From Streptomyces macrolidinus (GTDB taxonomy: Bacteria > Actinomycetota > Actinomycetes > Streptomycetales > Streptomycetaceae), in assembly GCF_023887685.1 (NCBI RefSeq), contig NZ_JAMWMR010000003.1:310001-374000 (forward strand): 64,000 nucleotides of DNA, given 5' to 3'. Made by a program: the position numbers and the translations under genes. Positions 10,309 through 63,444 of the stretch are shown here, one piece after another; position 1 is the stretch's first letter; each line of letters opens with the position of its first letter. Under the pieces are notes generated by a model that made no database searches, was not told the origin of the DNA, and worked only from the letters and a program-made list of their open reading frames with translations.

Positions 10309-11652
10309 ATGGACAACGGCAACTCCAGGACGAGGGACAGCAGGAAGGGCGACGAGTACCACGCCCTGCTCGCGCGTCGGGACGCGATGCGCCTGCGTGA
10401 CCAGATGCTCGCCCCGTCCCGCGCCGTGGAGAAGACGAAGTCTCCTACCTACGACGCCTACGACGGCGCCGCCGACCAGGAACTCATCGTCCAGAACCTG
10501 GCCGCGGTCACCCCGTTCAGTGAACTCATCGCCCACCTCTACGACGCCATGTTCGAACGGCACCCGTATCTGCGGCAGTTGTTCCCGGAATCGATGGAGT
10601 TCCAGAAGGCGCACCTGGAGCGGGCGTTCTGGTTCCTGATCGAGCATCTGCACAAGCCCGAGGAAATCACCACGTTCTGCACGCAGTTGGGCCGCGACCA
10701 CCGCAAACTCGGCGTCCAGCCCGTGCACTTCCAGGTGTTCGAGGTCGCGCTCTCCGAGGCGATGTACCGCATGTCCGGCGGTCGTGTCGACCAGGAGGTG
10801 GAGCAGGCCTGGCTGCGCATGGTGCGGTTCGCCGCCGCGGGCATGGTCGCGGGCTCGAAGCGCGCACTGGCCGAACCCCCCGCCTGGCACGGCACGGTGA
10901 CGTCCCATCAGCTCCGCCGCCCCGACCTCGCGGTGATCCGCGTCCGCACCGCCGAGCCCTACCCGTACCAGCCCGGCCAGTACGCGACCATCGAGTCCCC
11001 GCTGCTGCCGCACACCTGGCGCCCGTACACGTTCGCCACCGTCCCCGCACCGGACGGCGAGCTGGAGTTCCACATCCGCCGCACCGGTCCGGGCGGCGTG
11101 AGCGACGCCATGACCCTGCACACCCGCGTCGGTGACACCCTGCGCCTCGGTCCGCCGCAGGGCACGGCGACCCTGGACGACGACCAGGGGCGGGACGTGC
11201 TCATCGTGGCGGGCGGCACCGGCTGGGCCACCGGCCGGGCGCTCCTTGAGGACCTGTCCCAGCGGCGCGCGCCGGGCCGCAGGGCCCATCTCTTCCTCGG
11301 CGCCCGTACCTCCGAGGACCTGTACGACGCACAGGCCCTGTCCCGGCTGGAGAACCGCTGCCCCTGGCTGCGGGTCGTCCCGGTGATCAGCGACGGCCCG
11401 GGGGCGTCCCCGGACGGCTCGGTGGCCGAGGCGATCGCCCGGCACGGGGACTTCTCCCAGCACATCGCCTACGTCAGCGGCCCGCCCGCGATGGTCACCG
11501 CGGCCGTGTGGCGACTGGCCGGTCTCGGCCTGCCCGCCGACCGCATCCGCCACGACCCGGTCGCCGGTATGGTCCCGCTGCCCTCGCACGCGCAGCGGAC
11601 CCGGCCGACGGGACCGGCGGTGGGTCACATGGCCGAAGGCGCCCAGGTCTGA
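10309..11652 (+). CDS. Flavohemoprotein (globin + FAD/NAD reductase), nitric oxide dioxygenase type
   Basis: 447 aa from ATG 10309 (GAGGAGA 7 nt upstream); an in-frame ATG at 10255 with GAGGAAG is an alternative start. After a charged stretch of about 55 residues comes a globin domain with the B10 tyrosine in LIAHLYDAMF and the proximal histidine in GRDHRKLGVQPVHF. A ferredoxin-reductase-like module follows with the FAD motif RPYTFATV (RxYS in most relatives) and the nucleotide site VAGGTGWATGRAL. Such proteins oxidise NO to nitrate with O2 and NAD(P)H in the cytoplasm. The N-terminal extension and aromatic FAD motif mark it as a divergent actinobacterial type. It stands alone between a gene-poor region with a DevR-like box and a strong terminator. 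Confidence 0.9.
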   Translation: MDNGNSRTRDSRKGDEYHALLARRDAMRLRDQMLAPSRAVEKTKSPTYDAYDGAADQELIVQNLAAVTPFSELIAHLYDAMFERHPYLRQLFPESMEFQKAHLERAFWFLIEHLHKPEEITTFCTQLGRDHRKLGVQPVHFQVFEVALSEAMYRMSGGRVDQEVEQAWLRMVRFAAAGMVAGSKRALAEPPAWHGTVTSHQLRRPDLAVIRVRTAEPYPYQPGQYATIESPLLPHTWRPYTFATVPAPDGELEFHIRRTGPGGVSDAMTLHTRVGDTLRLGPPQGTATLDDDQGRDVLIVAGGTGWATGRALLEDLSQRRAPGRRAHLFLGARTSEDLYDAQALSRLENRCPWLRVVPVISDGPGASPDGSVAEAIARHGDFSQHIAYVSGPPAMVTAAVWRLAGLGLPADRIRHDPVAGMVPLPSHAQRTRPTGPAVGHMAEGAQV

Positions 11653-37000: not shown

Positions 37001-37154
37001 GCTGGCCGCCGGCCGCTATCCGGTGCCGCACGGCCCGGCGGAGCCGGTCCTCGCAGGCGGGGGAGTGGAGGTGTACACCGGAAGCGTGCCCGCTGTTTTC
37101 GGAGGTGGAACGGGATTGCGCTCACATAATGAGACGTCCGTCCCACCTGCTTGA
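34074..37154 (+). CDS. Membrane PAS-GGDEF-EAL protein with degenerate EAL domain (putative diguanylate cyclase, CdgE-like)
   Basis: 1026 aa from GTG 34074 (GGGAGGAT just upstream). About eight membrane helices to residue 265, a hydrophilic Pro/Arg/His-rich linker (268-345), two more helices (about 350-405), and a PAS domain (about 420-540). The GGDEF domain has GGDEF intact at 629-633 and an intact inhibitory RQGD site. The EAL domain is present in length but broken in key places: EAL is replaced by GAQ at 762-764 and the metal-binding DDFG by DGFG at 883-886. So it should make c-di-GMP but not degrade it. Location directly before ilvB fits S. coelicolor CdgE as I remember it. Confidence 0.88.
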   Translation: MSSLGALPARRPVPGGPTRLVPQLALVLVCATYAVGSALGWGSRRLALFMGDFGLSVAAGIAAVSCFIYARSTRSRFRPAWLLFALSSAMATLGNAVWGWYEVVLQDPVPSPSYADLFFLCFAPPAIVGLLVLAKRPVSKAGWVCLGLDAWLIGGSLLTLSWSLALAQAAKFDGPSVAHTALSLAYPLLDIALISMVLALHFRGSAVHRSAVNTAIGALALTVMCDALFTSPLLHSSYRSGQLLDAGWFSGSLLLAYAPWLGSRYRLPSPDGHARPPHGQVPGQRQTADGRTGRQDGHPHTRPHPLTRGRDHGSSRQPDPGPAREPGHAPPKEAGLPQDLGREWYAATGARPIAGCSLAALTPYLAAAVCTLGILYNVLNGQSIDRVVLITAGAVVLALVVRQGIMLLDNITLTRELAQKENHFRSLVQGSSDVIMIAAPDGTLNYVSPAAAGVYGRSAEELVGTELAALIHPEDLGCVVHEVRRFLAAGHAEEPTTRIECRFRSGRGGWLNVESTVNRHHGGLILNSRDVTERVRLQAQLQHSAEHDPLTDLPNRALFTKRVQQALSGRRSSDRGAALRNTAVLFLDLDGFKAVNDTIGHHAGDELLVQAARRLQEALRQGDTAARLGGDEFAALIVGDGTHDRTARERHILELADRLRVTLSQPYDIDGNDVRVAASIGVAFSEPGQGAGELLRNADLAMYRAKAGGKNRVELYAPQMQQDVARRTEPGARLRAALRDGEFVLVHQPVVSLDDGRIASVGAQARWRSSQGVLFTPAEFLRVSEDSDKAAELGRWTLEEAVEQAARRTAAGLAVPVAVSMSARRLLDRSLPLGSVEALLARHGLASGALTIELSGIDPRVCLDDLERRLGALRRIGVRIALDGFGSGYAAITALRSLPVDALKIDRELVEGVVESARLHKITSGLLRIASDLGLESVADGVDLPEQVAALRAMGCTHGQGMAFSGPLDEHLLRRELAAGRYPVPHGPAEPVLAGGGVEVYTGSVPAVFGGGTGLRSHNETSVPPA

Positions 37155-37187: not shown

Positions 37188-37229
37188 ATGCGCACCCGAA
37201 TTCTCGTACTTGGACAGCGCGTCGGCTGA
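37188..37229 (+). CDS. ilv leader peptide MRTRILVLGQRVG
   Basis: 13-aa open frame with GAGAGGG before the ATG, too short for usual gene finders. It carries the run Ile-Leu-Val-Leu, the three end products of the pathway encoded downstream, and is followed 54 nt later by a U-tract terminator. This is the arrangement of transcription attenuation, known for actinobacterial ilvBNC operons such as that of Corynebacterium. When charged branched-chain tRNAs are short, ribosomes would stall on these codons and favour an alternative RNA fold that lets transcription reach ilvB. Confidence 0.85.
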   Translation: MRTRILVLGQRVG

Positions 37230-37282
37230 GCTGGACGGCACCGGAATGCAACCGGAATCCCAGCGACCACACCCGACGCGCT

Positions 37283-37316
37283 CCCCTCGCTTGCCTCCCG
37301 GCACGAGGGGTTTTTT
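37283..37316 (+). terminator. Attenuator terminator of ilvBNC
   Basis: CCCCTCG (37283-37289) pairs with CGAGGGG (37304-37310) and is followed at once by TTTTTT (37311-37316). One of only two hairpins in the window with a true T-run, the other being in front of cimA. Confidence 0.85.
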
Positions 37317-61506: not shown

Positions 61507-61548
61507 AGCCGATCGCTCGCATCCTGAAGCCGACCGCTCGCATTCTGA
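61497..61548. repeat. 21-bp tandem repeat spanning the transporter stop
   Basis: CGCATCCTGAAGCCGAYCGCT at 61497-61517 and 61518-61538 (one mismatch) and a partial third copy at 61539-61548. The transporter stop TGA (61504-61506) is inside copy 1 and is repeated in copies 2 and 3. Confidence 0.75.
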
Positions 61549-61590
61549 GACGGTGATGAGCGCGGGGGCGGATTGTGCCAAACTGCCCCC

Positions 61591-61641
61591 GTGCTCACGT
61601 TCGCCATGATTATTGGCAGCAGGCGCGCCGGTCCGCAGTGA
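61591..61641 (+). CDS. cimA leader peptide MLTFAMIIGSRRAGPQ
   Basis: 16-aa frame from GTG 61591 with Leu, two consecutive Ile codons (ATT ATT) and a Phe/Met-containing core. A hairpin with a T6 run follows 55 nt after its stop, before cimA. ATT is a rare Ile codon in this high-GC genome, which would enhance stalling when Ile-tRNA is scarce. CAAACT, 6 nt before the GTG, may be the -10 box, making the leader mRNA itself leaderless. Not described in any source I can cite. Confidence 0.75.
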   Translation: MLTFAMIIGSRRAGPQ

Positions 61642-61696
61642 CCACCGTGTACGACCAGGTACGGGTGGGCACTATCGCCCTCGACCCGCGCGCAGA

Positions 61697-61722
61697 CCTC
61701 TCGCATCCGCGAGGGGTTTTTT
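61697..61722 (+). terminator. Attenuator terminator of cimA
   Basis: CCTCTCGC (61697-61704) pairs with GCGAGGGG (61709-61716, one G-U pair), loop ATCC, followed by TTTTTT (61717-61722). Confidence 0.85.
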
Positions 61723-61830: not shown

Positions 61831-63444
61831 ATGACGGAAACCAGGGAATCCAGCGAGCTGGACGACTCGTTCCACGTCTTCGACACGACGCTGCGCGACG
61901 GCGCGCAGCGCGAGGGCATCAATCTGACCGTCGCGGACAAGCTGGCCATCGCACGGCACCTGGACGACTTCGGCGTCGGCTTCATCGAGGGCGGCTGGCC
62001 CGGTGCCAACCCGCGCGACACCGAGTTCTTCGCCCGCGCCCAGCAGGAGATCGAGTTCCGGCACGCGCGACTCGTCGCCTTCGGCGCGACGCGCAGGCCC
62101 GGTGCCAAGGCGGCCGAGGACCCCCAGGTCAGGGCGCTGCTGGAGTCGGGCGCGCCGGTGATCACGCTGGTCGCGAAGTCGCATGACCGTCATGTCGAGC
62201 TGGCGTTGCGCACGACGCTCGACGAGAACCTGGAGATGATCCGCGACACGGTCTCCCATCTGCGCGCGGCGGGCCGCCGGGTCTTCGTGGACTGCGAGCA
62301 CTTCTTCGACGGTTACCGGGCCAACGCGCAGTACGCGACCTCGGTGGTGCGCACGGCGGCGGAGGCGGGCGCGGACGTCGTCATCCTCTGTGACACGAAC
62401 GGCGGCATGCTGCCCGCCCAGGTGCACGCGGTGGTCTCGACGGTCCGAACGGACACGGGCGCCCGCCTCGGCATCCACGCCCAGGACGACACGGGCTGCG
62501 CGGTCGCGAACACCCTGGCCGCGGTGGACGCGGGCGCGAGTCATGTGCAGTGCACGGCGAACGGCTACGGCGAGCGGGTGGGCAACGCCAACCTGTTCCC
62601 GGTGGTCGCGGCCCTGGAGCTGAAGTACGGCAGGAAGGTGCTGCCCGAGGGCAGGCTCCGCGACATGACGCGGATCTCGCACGCGATCGCGGAGGTCGTG
62701 AACCTCACCCCCTCCACGCACCAGCCCTACGTCGGGGTCTCCGCCTTCGCCCACAAGGCGGGCCTGCACGCGTCCGCGATCAAGGTCGACCCGGACCTCT
62801 ACCAGCACATCGACCCCGAGCTGGTCGGCAACACCATGCGGATGCTGGTCTCCGACATGGCGGGCCGCGCGTCCGTGGAGCTCAAGGGCAAGGAGCTGGG
62901 CGTCGACCTGGGCGGCGACCGCGAGCTGGTCGGCCGCGTCGTGGAGCGCGTGAAGGAGCGCGAGCTGCGGGGCTACACCTACGAGGCGGCGGACGCGAGC
63001 TTCGAGCTGCTGCTGCGCGAGGAGGTTGCGGGCAAGCCGCTGCGCTACTTCCGTACGGAGTCCTGGCGGGCGATCACCGAGGACCGCCCCGACGGCACCC
63101 ACGCCAACGAGGCCACGGTCAAGCTGTGGGCGAAGGGCGAGCGCATCGTGGCGACGGCGGAGGGCAACGGTCCGGTCAACGCCCTGGACCGCGCCCTGCG
63201 GGTCGCCCTGGAGCGGATCTACCCCGAGCTGGCCGCGCTCGGCCTGGTCGACTACAAGGTCCGCATCCTGGAGGGCAGGCACGGTACGCAGTCCACGACG
63301 CGTGTCCTCATCTCCACCTCGGACGGCAAGGGCGAGTGGTCCACGGTGGGCGTGGCGGACAACGTGATCGCCGCGTCGTGGCAGGCGCTGGAGGACGCGT
63401 ACGCCTACGGGTTGCTGCGCGCGGGCGTGGAACCGGCGGAGTAG
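61831..63444 (+). CDS. cimA: (R)-citramalate synthase
   Basis: 537 aa. Condenses acetyl-CoA with pyruvate to citramalate, an entry to isoleucine that does not need threonine. LeuA-type barrel with the family start DTTLRDGAQREGINL, metal-binding His in GIHAQDDTGCAVANTLAA and the downstream NGYGERVGNANL, then the regulatory LeuA dimer domain (GVADNVIAASWQALEDAYAYGLLR). The substrate-side sequence FDTTLRDGAQ and length are those of CimA (TIGR00977-type) rather than of LeuA. Preceded by an Ile leader peptide and attenuator, consistent with end-product control by isoleucine. Confidence 0.93.
   Translation: MTETRESSELDDSFHVFDTTLRDGAQREGINLTVADKLAIARHLDDFGVGFIEGGWPGANPRDTEFFARAQQEIEFRHARLVAFGATRRPGAKAAEDPQVRALLESGAPVITLVAKSHDRHVELALRTTLDENLEMIRDTVSHLRAAGRRVFVDCEHFFDGYRANAQYATSVVRTAAEAGADVVILCDTNGGMLPAQVHAVVSTVRTDTGARLGIHAQDDTGCAVANTLAAVDAGASHVQCTANGYGERVGNANLFPVVAALELKYGRKVLPEGRLRDMTRISHAIAEVVNLTPSTHQPYVGVSAFAHKAGLHASAIKVDPDLYQHIDPELVGNTMRMLVSDMAGRASVELKGKELGVDLGGDRELVGRVVERVKERELRGYTYEAADASFELLLREEVAGKPLRYFRTESWRAITEDRPDGTHANEATVKLWAKGERIVATAEGNGPVNALDRALRVALERIYPELAALGLVDYKVRILEGRHGTQSTTRVLISTSDGKGEWSTVGVADNVIAASWQALEDAYAYGLLRAGVEPAE

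Follow-up and report, generated by a model that had tools for sequence, protein, structure and literature searches.

A probable isoleucine attenuator before the citramalate synthase gene cimA in Streptomyces and across its class

Citramalate synthase (CimA) opens the threonine-independent isoleucine route by making a precursor of this amino acid, and the DNA ahead of its gene in Streptomyces macrolidinus raises the question of whether isoleucine supply governs its transcription. We analyzed this locus within a window of 64,000 nt. The putative regulated gene lies at 61831..63444 on the plus strand, like all parts of the element described here, with an AGGAG box preceding its start at 61831. 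Its product scored 639.7 bits against TIGR00977, the equivalog model for citramalate synthase (cut-off 450).

A preliminary description had proposed an attenuator at this position, made up of a 16-aa leader with tandem, rare ATT codons and a U-tract hairpin ahead of citramalate synthase, and these parts were recovered. The leader ORF, (V/M)LTFAMIIGSRRAGPQ, is conserved in relatives and runs from GTG 61591 to a TGA stop ending at 61641 (61591..61641). Its translation from this start is VLTFAMIIGSRRAGPQ (16 aa), with the codons GTG CTC ACG TTC GCC ATG ATT ATT GGC AGC AGG CGC GCC GGT CCG CAG TGA. The candidate sensing codons, ATT ATT (Ile-Ile), occupy 61609..61614, as judged from leader conservation and codon counts; ATT is rare, with an ATT:ATC ratio of 1:92 in eight CDS of the window. 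A -10-like box, CAAACT (61579..61584; CAGACT, CACACT or CAAACT-type boxes in relatives), stands 6 nt from GTG 61591, the spacing of a leaderless mRNA, and the distance from box to start is 6–7 nt in 121 of 131 leaders. The internal ATG at 61606 was dropped as a start; it is ACG in several species (for example L006, L025 and L027), which makes GTG 61591 the likely one.

The intrinsic terminator (61694..61722) has a stem pairing 61697–61704 with 61709–61716, the hairpin CCTCTCGC-ATCC-GCGAGGGG (61697–61716), followed by T6 (61717–61722); the stem is extended by an AGA that pairs with letters of the U-tract. Beyond what had been described, folding and alignment revealed a second helix, P1, whose 5′ arm (GCGCGCCGGTC, 61623..61633) lies within the last leader codons and pairs with a 3′ arm (GACCCGCGCGC, 61683..61693) flush with the terminator, with one C-C mismatch in Streptomyces. 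The P1 loop (61639..61682, from folds and alignments), which in Streptomyces contains a variable hairpin P2, ranges from 3 to 56 nt across relatives and measures 3–20 nt in most non-Streptomyces families. The linker between P1 and the terminator is 0–3 nt; in the predicted fold of the window sequence there is no gap, so that the two helices abut without overlapping.

Both helices are supported by covariation. In an alignment of 29 diverse cimA-leader sequences, with shuffles and slid structures as controls, changes on both sides were found in 12 of 20 pairs (7/10 in P1 and 5/10 in the terminator), and 42 doubly changed cells were observed against 9.6 in shuffles. The paired fraction was 94.6%, dropping to 36–56% in slid structures. 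The two P1 pairs adjoining the terminator were invariant in this alignment; they are therefore no evidence of pairing by themselves, and their invariance fits a role at the junction.

Other pairings were considered and set aside. An extension of P1 into the terminator 5′ arm (CGUGAG with CUCUCG, L101) was seen by eye in one family, where a stalled ribosome would cover it. AGACCC/AGACCUC repeats could pair with the terminator 3′ arm in some sequences, too late in transcription to act. A hairpin around the Ile codons, P0, occurs in many leaders and is missing from the shortest ones, and is thus not an essential part.

CimA was sought at three ranks, in the genus (150 genomes), the family (121) and the class (247). 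About 140 cimA upstream regions were examined, with identical ones removed, and 132 non-identical regions had P1 abutting a terminator; the leader counts use 131 of these, L145 having no callable start. Ile codons were present in all 131 leaders, in 128 by script and in the other three by eye (L117, MFNGLLIIGRRAG; L128, MSSISIIGRRAG; L139, MTSWHVATATVIID; starts miscalled by the script). The leaders use ATT and ATC at 216:38, against 1:92 in the window CDS. Leader, P1 and terminator stood before cimA in every sampled Streptomyces and also in other genera and families, in at least 15 GTDB families (f1, f86, f88, f89, f80, f84, f90, f81, f76, f92, f98, f83, f7, f5 and f6) and, by eye, in f101 (L119, MTVRQIIF then stop). 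The shortest leaders outside Streptomyces read MSFCLIIT, MALPLIIA and MNLCLIIS, each followed by a stop, and the remainder of the leader varies; the retained core is therefore an Ile-Ile pair close to a stop codon that itself lies close to P1. Some leaders carry a single Ile codon (ATTATG, ATTACG). The preliminary description had singled out conservation of the leader frame as a check on its proposal; the frame, the Ile codons and the stop near P1 survive substitutions and 1-nt indels alike, and in Streptomyces, where such indels shift the frame 3′ of the Ile codons, an alternative stop codon takes over. Recurrence before cimA across genera and families, together with the covariation, argues that the element is not a product of chance.

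The element was missing upstream of several cimA genes (L125, L130 and L133–L137). In family f87 (L125, L130, L134, L136 and L137) the upstream region has neither a terminator nor an Ile leader, which suggests that attenuation was lost or replaced there. Some relatives within Streptomyces carry a second, more distant cimA-like gene (about 60% identity; L176–L179), without leader or terminator. A short-pattern scan of the phylum gave mostly chance matches outside the genus, and one true distant leader (L041).

The preliminary description had also likened the element to the ilv attenuator 24 kb away. A covariance model, R1, built from cimA leaders only, bore this out, matching the ilvB leader (MRTRILVLGQRVG; 37188..37316, plus strand) at 33.7 bits (E 9.5e-8), with the same P1/terminator layout as in cimA; apart from this match, nothing in the window was better than E 0.17. 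R1 matches occurred in 187 of 297 genomes of the class, and in the 18 genomes whose context was examined closely, leaders of ilvB, of leuS and, in one case, of leuA are among the further matches. On this scaffold the codons are Ile before cimA, I, L and V before ilvB, and LLL before leuS; codon identity thus follows the downstream gene. A third R1 match in the same genome as the window (L213), beside a tRNA gene and without a leader, was taken as a false positive. The leuA case (L236, one genome of family f82) has the scaffold with Leu codons (MKHLLLIESARH) at a position that in most actinobacteria is taken by the LEU element. In family f88, genomes that also carry the cimA element have a second element (L223, MFALVIIM; L224, MFTPRIII; each followed by a stop) upstream of a gene whose small ACT-domain-like product resembles an acetolactate synthase regulatory subunit.

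The placement of the codons relative to P1 was analyzed in 128 sequences with the downstream ribosome footprint set to 11 nt. The first Ile codon ends 7–14 nt 5′ of P1, most often 11 nt (81/128). With a ribosome stalled at that codon, most of P1 therefore stays accessible: 7% of its 5′ arm is covered on average, and none of it in 83 of 128. Relative to where P1 begins, the stop codon ends anywhere from 1 nt upstream to 38 nt downstream, and a ribosome at the stop covers the 5′ arm fully in 119 of 128 (96% on average). Two leaders, L144 and L162, are exceptions, ending 38 nt past P1, where a ribosome at the stop would miss the 5′ arm. Judged by these positions, the predicted placement of P1 is that of the antiterminator in known attenuators.

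These features are consistent with a ribosome-mediated transcription attenuator that would sense charged isoleucyl-tRNA, with P1 as its antiterminator, and we regard this reading as probable. Transcription would begin at or beside GTG 61591, and the ribosome would translate the leader on a leaderless mRNA. With ample Ile, it would pass ATT ATT to the stop and mask the P1 5′ arm; without P1 the terminator would form, ending transcription before cimA. When Ile is short, the ribosome would halt on ATT ATT, roughly 11 nt short of P1, allowing P1 to form; lying flush against the terminator base, P1 would then block completion of the terminator, and RNA polymerase would read into cimA. Sequence and comparison support the leader, its Ile codons, P1, the terminator and their conservation, covariation and spacing, and from these we infer the transcription start, the translation, the Ile dependence and the way in which P1 blocks the terminator. 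The attenuator interpretation of the preliminary description is thereby supported; the exclusion step we infer, because P1 and the terminator are adjacent without sharing letters and the search for a classical antiterminator that overlaps the terminator gave none.

In a thermodynamic pairing test of the 128 cimA leaders with the ribosome at the Ile codons, no antiterminator overlapping the terminator was found: the terminator 5′ arm was mostly unpaired in this stalled state (mean pairing 0.155, median 0.047, from the thermodynamic model only). The E. coli trp control gave 0.62 in the same test, and the ilvB leader of the window resembled cimA at 0.003. Under the nearest-neighbor model, P1 and the terminator can coexist. 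These results weigh against the attenuator reading, as do the leaders with a single Ile codon and the late stop of L144 and L162. Two options follow: P1 works through abutting, or the switch needs something outside the thermodynamic model. We favor abutting, because the gap between P1 and the terminator stays at a few letters despite free variation in loop length, and because the model for C. glutamicum ilvBNC likewise has adjacent hairpins, the proposed antiterminator and terminator sharing three letters (PMC11857589). P1, with its linker of so few letters, would enter the RNA exit channel together with the terminator stem, and the two would therefore compete for basal pairs, as in the C. glutamicum proposal. 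Tentatively, then, cimA, ilvB and leuS leaders of the Actinomycetia may use an antiterminator that has no base in common with the terminator and blocks it sterically at the exit channel; we hold this as one possibility.

The coexistence of P1 and the terminator in predicted folds, and a terminator 5′ arm left unpaired when the ribosome is stalled, would also suit a different role for P1 within ribosome-mediated Ile attenuation, as a pause or protector hairpin that synchronizes ribosome and polymerase, with an antiterminator that is unrecognized or kinetically formed. In trp-type leaders, pause hairpins stand at the place of P1. We nevertheless consider this account rather unlikely: P1 is covered by a ribosome at the stop and freed by a stalled one, which is the antiterminator position, the terminator-adjacent hairpin of C. 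glutamicum ilvBNC was assigned as the antiterminator, and the short-loop families have no other conserved helix.

Much less probable is a role of the conserved helix in binding a protein or small ligand, with translation of the leader being incidental; such a view was put forward for the leuA LEU element and, following the codon mutations, for S. coelicolor ilvB. The GCGCGC core is very highly conserved, which would agree with such a site, as would the mutation of candidate codons before S. coelicolor ilvB, which according to PMC1262725 reportedly had no effect, a result that also weighs against the attenuator reading. However, the P1 loop is conserved neither in length nor in sequence, leaving no constant binding pocket, the reading frame and Ile codons are retained, and codon identity tracks the downstream gene. 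Published codon mutations also conflict, since clear effects were found in M. tuberculosis and C. glutamicum: codon mutation abolished the response of the M. tuberculosis ilvB1 attenuator (PMC13236596), and the C. glutamicum ilvBNC attenuator is further supported by hairpin mutations (PMC11857589). That the hairpin and U-tract, situated between a transporter gene and cimA, merely terminate the transporter gene, the short ORF being fortuitous, is scarcely credible given the conserved promoter-like box and leader between the upstream stop (61506) and the hairpin, the persistence of the element with cimA where the upstream gene differs (IlvE-like C-terminus, L101), the covariation and the retention of Ile codons.

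The favored reading, attenuation by charged isoleucyl-tRNA, places the cimA element among known systems. The actinobacterial branched-chain amino acid scaffold of ilvB and leuS has the same order of a hairpin directly followed by a terminator, with the leader stop near the hairpin 5′ arm. The ilvB/ilvL attenuators of Streptomyces and M. tuberculosis (PMC1262725, PMC8079986, PMC13236596) share the leaderless or short leader, the pathway and, by the R1 match in the window, the P1-terminator layout; they carry a mix of Ile, Leu and Val codons, whereas cimA has Ile alone. Streptomyces leuS attenuators (PMC1262725, PMC8079986), whose scaffold R1 matched in other genomes, differ in their LLL codons and aminoacyl-tRNA synthetase gene. 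The C. glutamicum ilvBNC/ilvB-II motif (PMC11857589, PMC10272879) also combines a near-leaderless leader, branched-chain codons, a U-tract and an antiterminator hairpin directly 5′ of the terminator, but has a trinucleotide overlap where the cimA helices abut, and differs in downstream gene and sequence and from the Ile-only codons of cimA. With E. coli trp-type attenuators (of the Rfam Trp_leader kind) the element shares tandem sensing codons, an intrinsic terminator and a stop codon near a helix that the ribosome can mask; unlike them, it has a predicted leaderless start, and pairing of an antiterminator with the terminator 5′ arm was not found in it. The LEU element before leuA (PMC1262725) likewise has a leader peptide with tandem codons and a related synthase gene, but is pseudoknot-like and without a terminator, its base stem pairing the Leu codons with the leuA Shine-Dalgarno sequence; by contrast, a terminator is present before cimA, and P1 forms at a distance from the ribosome-binding site of that gene.

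No Rfam 15 family matched the cimA element at gathering score, and matches at E up to 10 were chance matches only. In agreement with the preliminary description, which had called cimA a gene not usually listed as attenuated, it is absent from the accessible text of PMC1262725, Table 4 of PMC8079986 and the main text of PMC11109978; an earlier prediction (2010 Lopatovskaya survey) or an unremarked short transcript (supplementary transcript-end tables) may exist. The element thus appears to be a class-wide Ile attenuator of a known kind, apparently undescribed before cimA. Through it, charged tRNA would exert end-product control over the cimA route in addition to the shared ilvB step. With Ile at cimA, Leu at leuS and all three residues at ilvB, these leaders form a natural set on one scaffold for probing actinobacterial attenuators, and the cimA attenuator would offer a practical handle on precursor supply in Streptomyces.

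Also beyond the preliminary description, a palindromic box lies upstream of the promoter. This predicted operator, GCTCGCATTCTGAGA (61536..61550, plus strand), stands about 40–55 nt upstream of the leader start and agrees by eye in 14 of 15 letters with the NdgR/LtbR consensus KTYCRSMWYSYGRRM (PMC8222616). An exact TGAGAC occurs at near-constant distance in 95 of 132 cimA upstream regions, against 1.6% expected from shuffles, and CAYNNTGAGAC has only two occurrences in the window, one upstream of ilvB and one upstream of cimA. The box before ilvB (37120–37134) agrees in 12 of 15 letters. In some families the box is a near-perfect palindrome, GTCTCA-N5-TGAGAC (for example L103 and L111). In S. 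coelicolor, ilvB is an NdgR ChIP-seq target according to the visible part of the published data, and cimA is not among the targets visible there. Based on the predicted operator, cimA would be an additional member of the NdgR/LtbR regulon. A near-direct repeat, CGCTCGCATCCTGAAG / CGCTCGCATTCTGAGA (61513–61551), just 5′ of the cimA promoter, is possibly a duplicated operator half in this S. macrolidinus strain.

Elsewhere in the window, an Rfam Guanidine-II match above cut-off (11371–11415, minus strand, 38.5 bits) lies antisense within a plus-strand flavohaemoprotein-like coding region and is probably a false positive.
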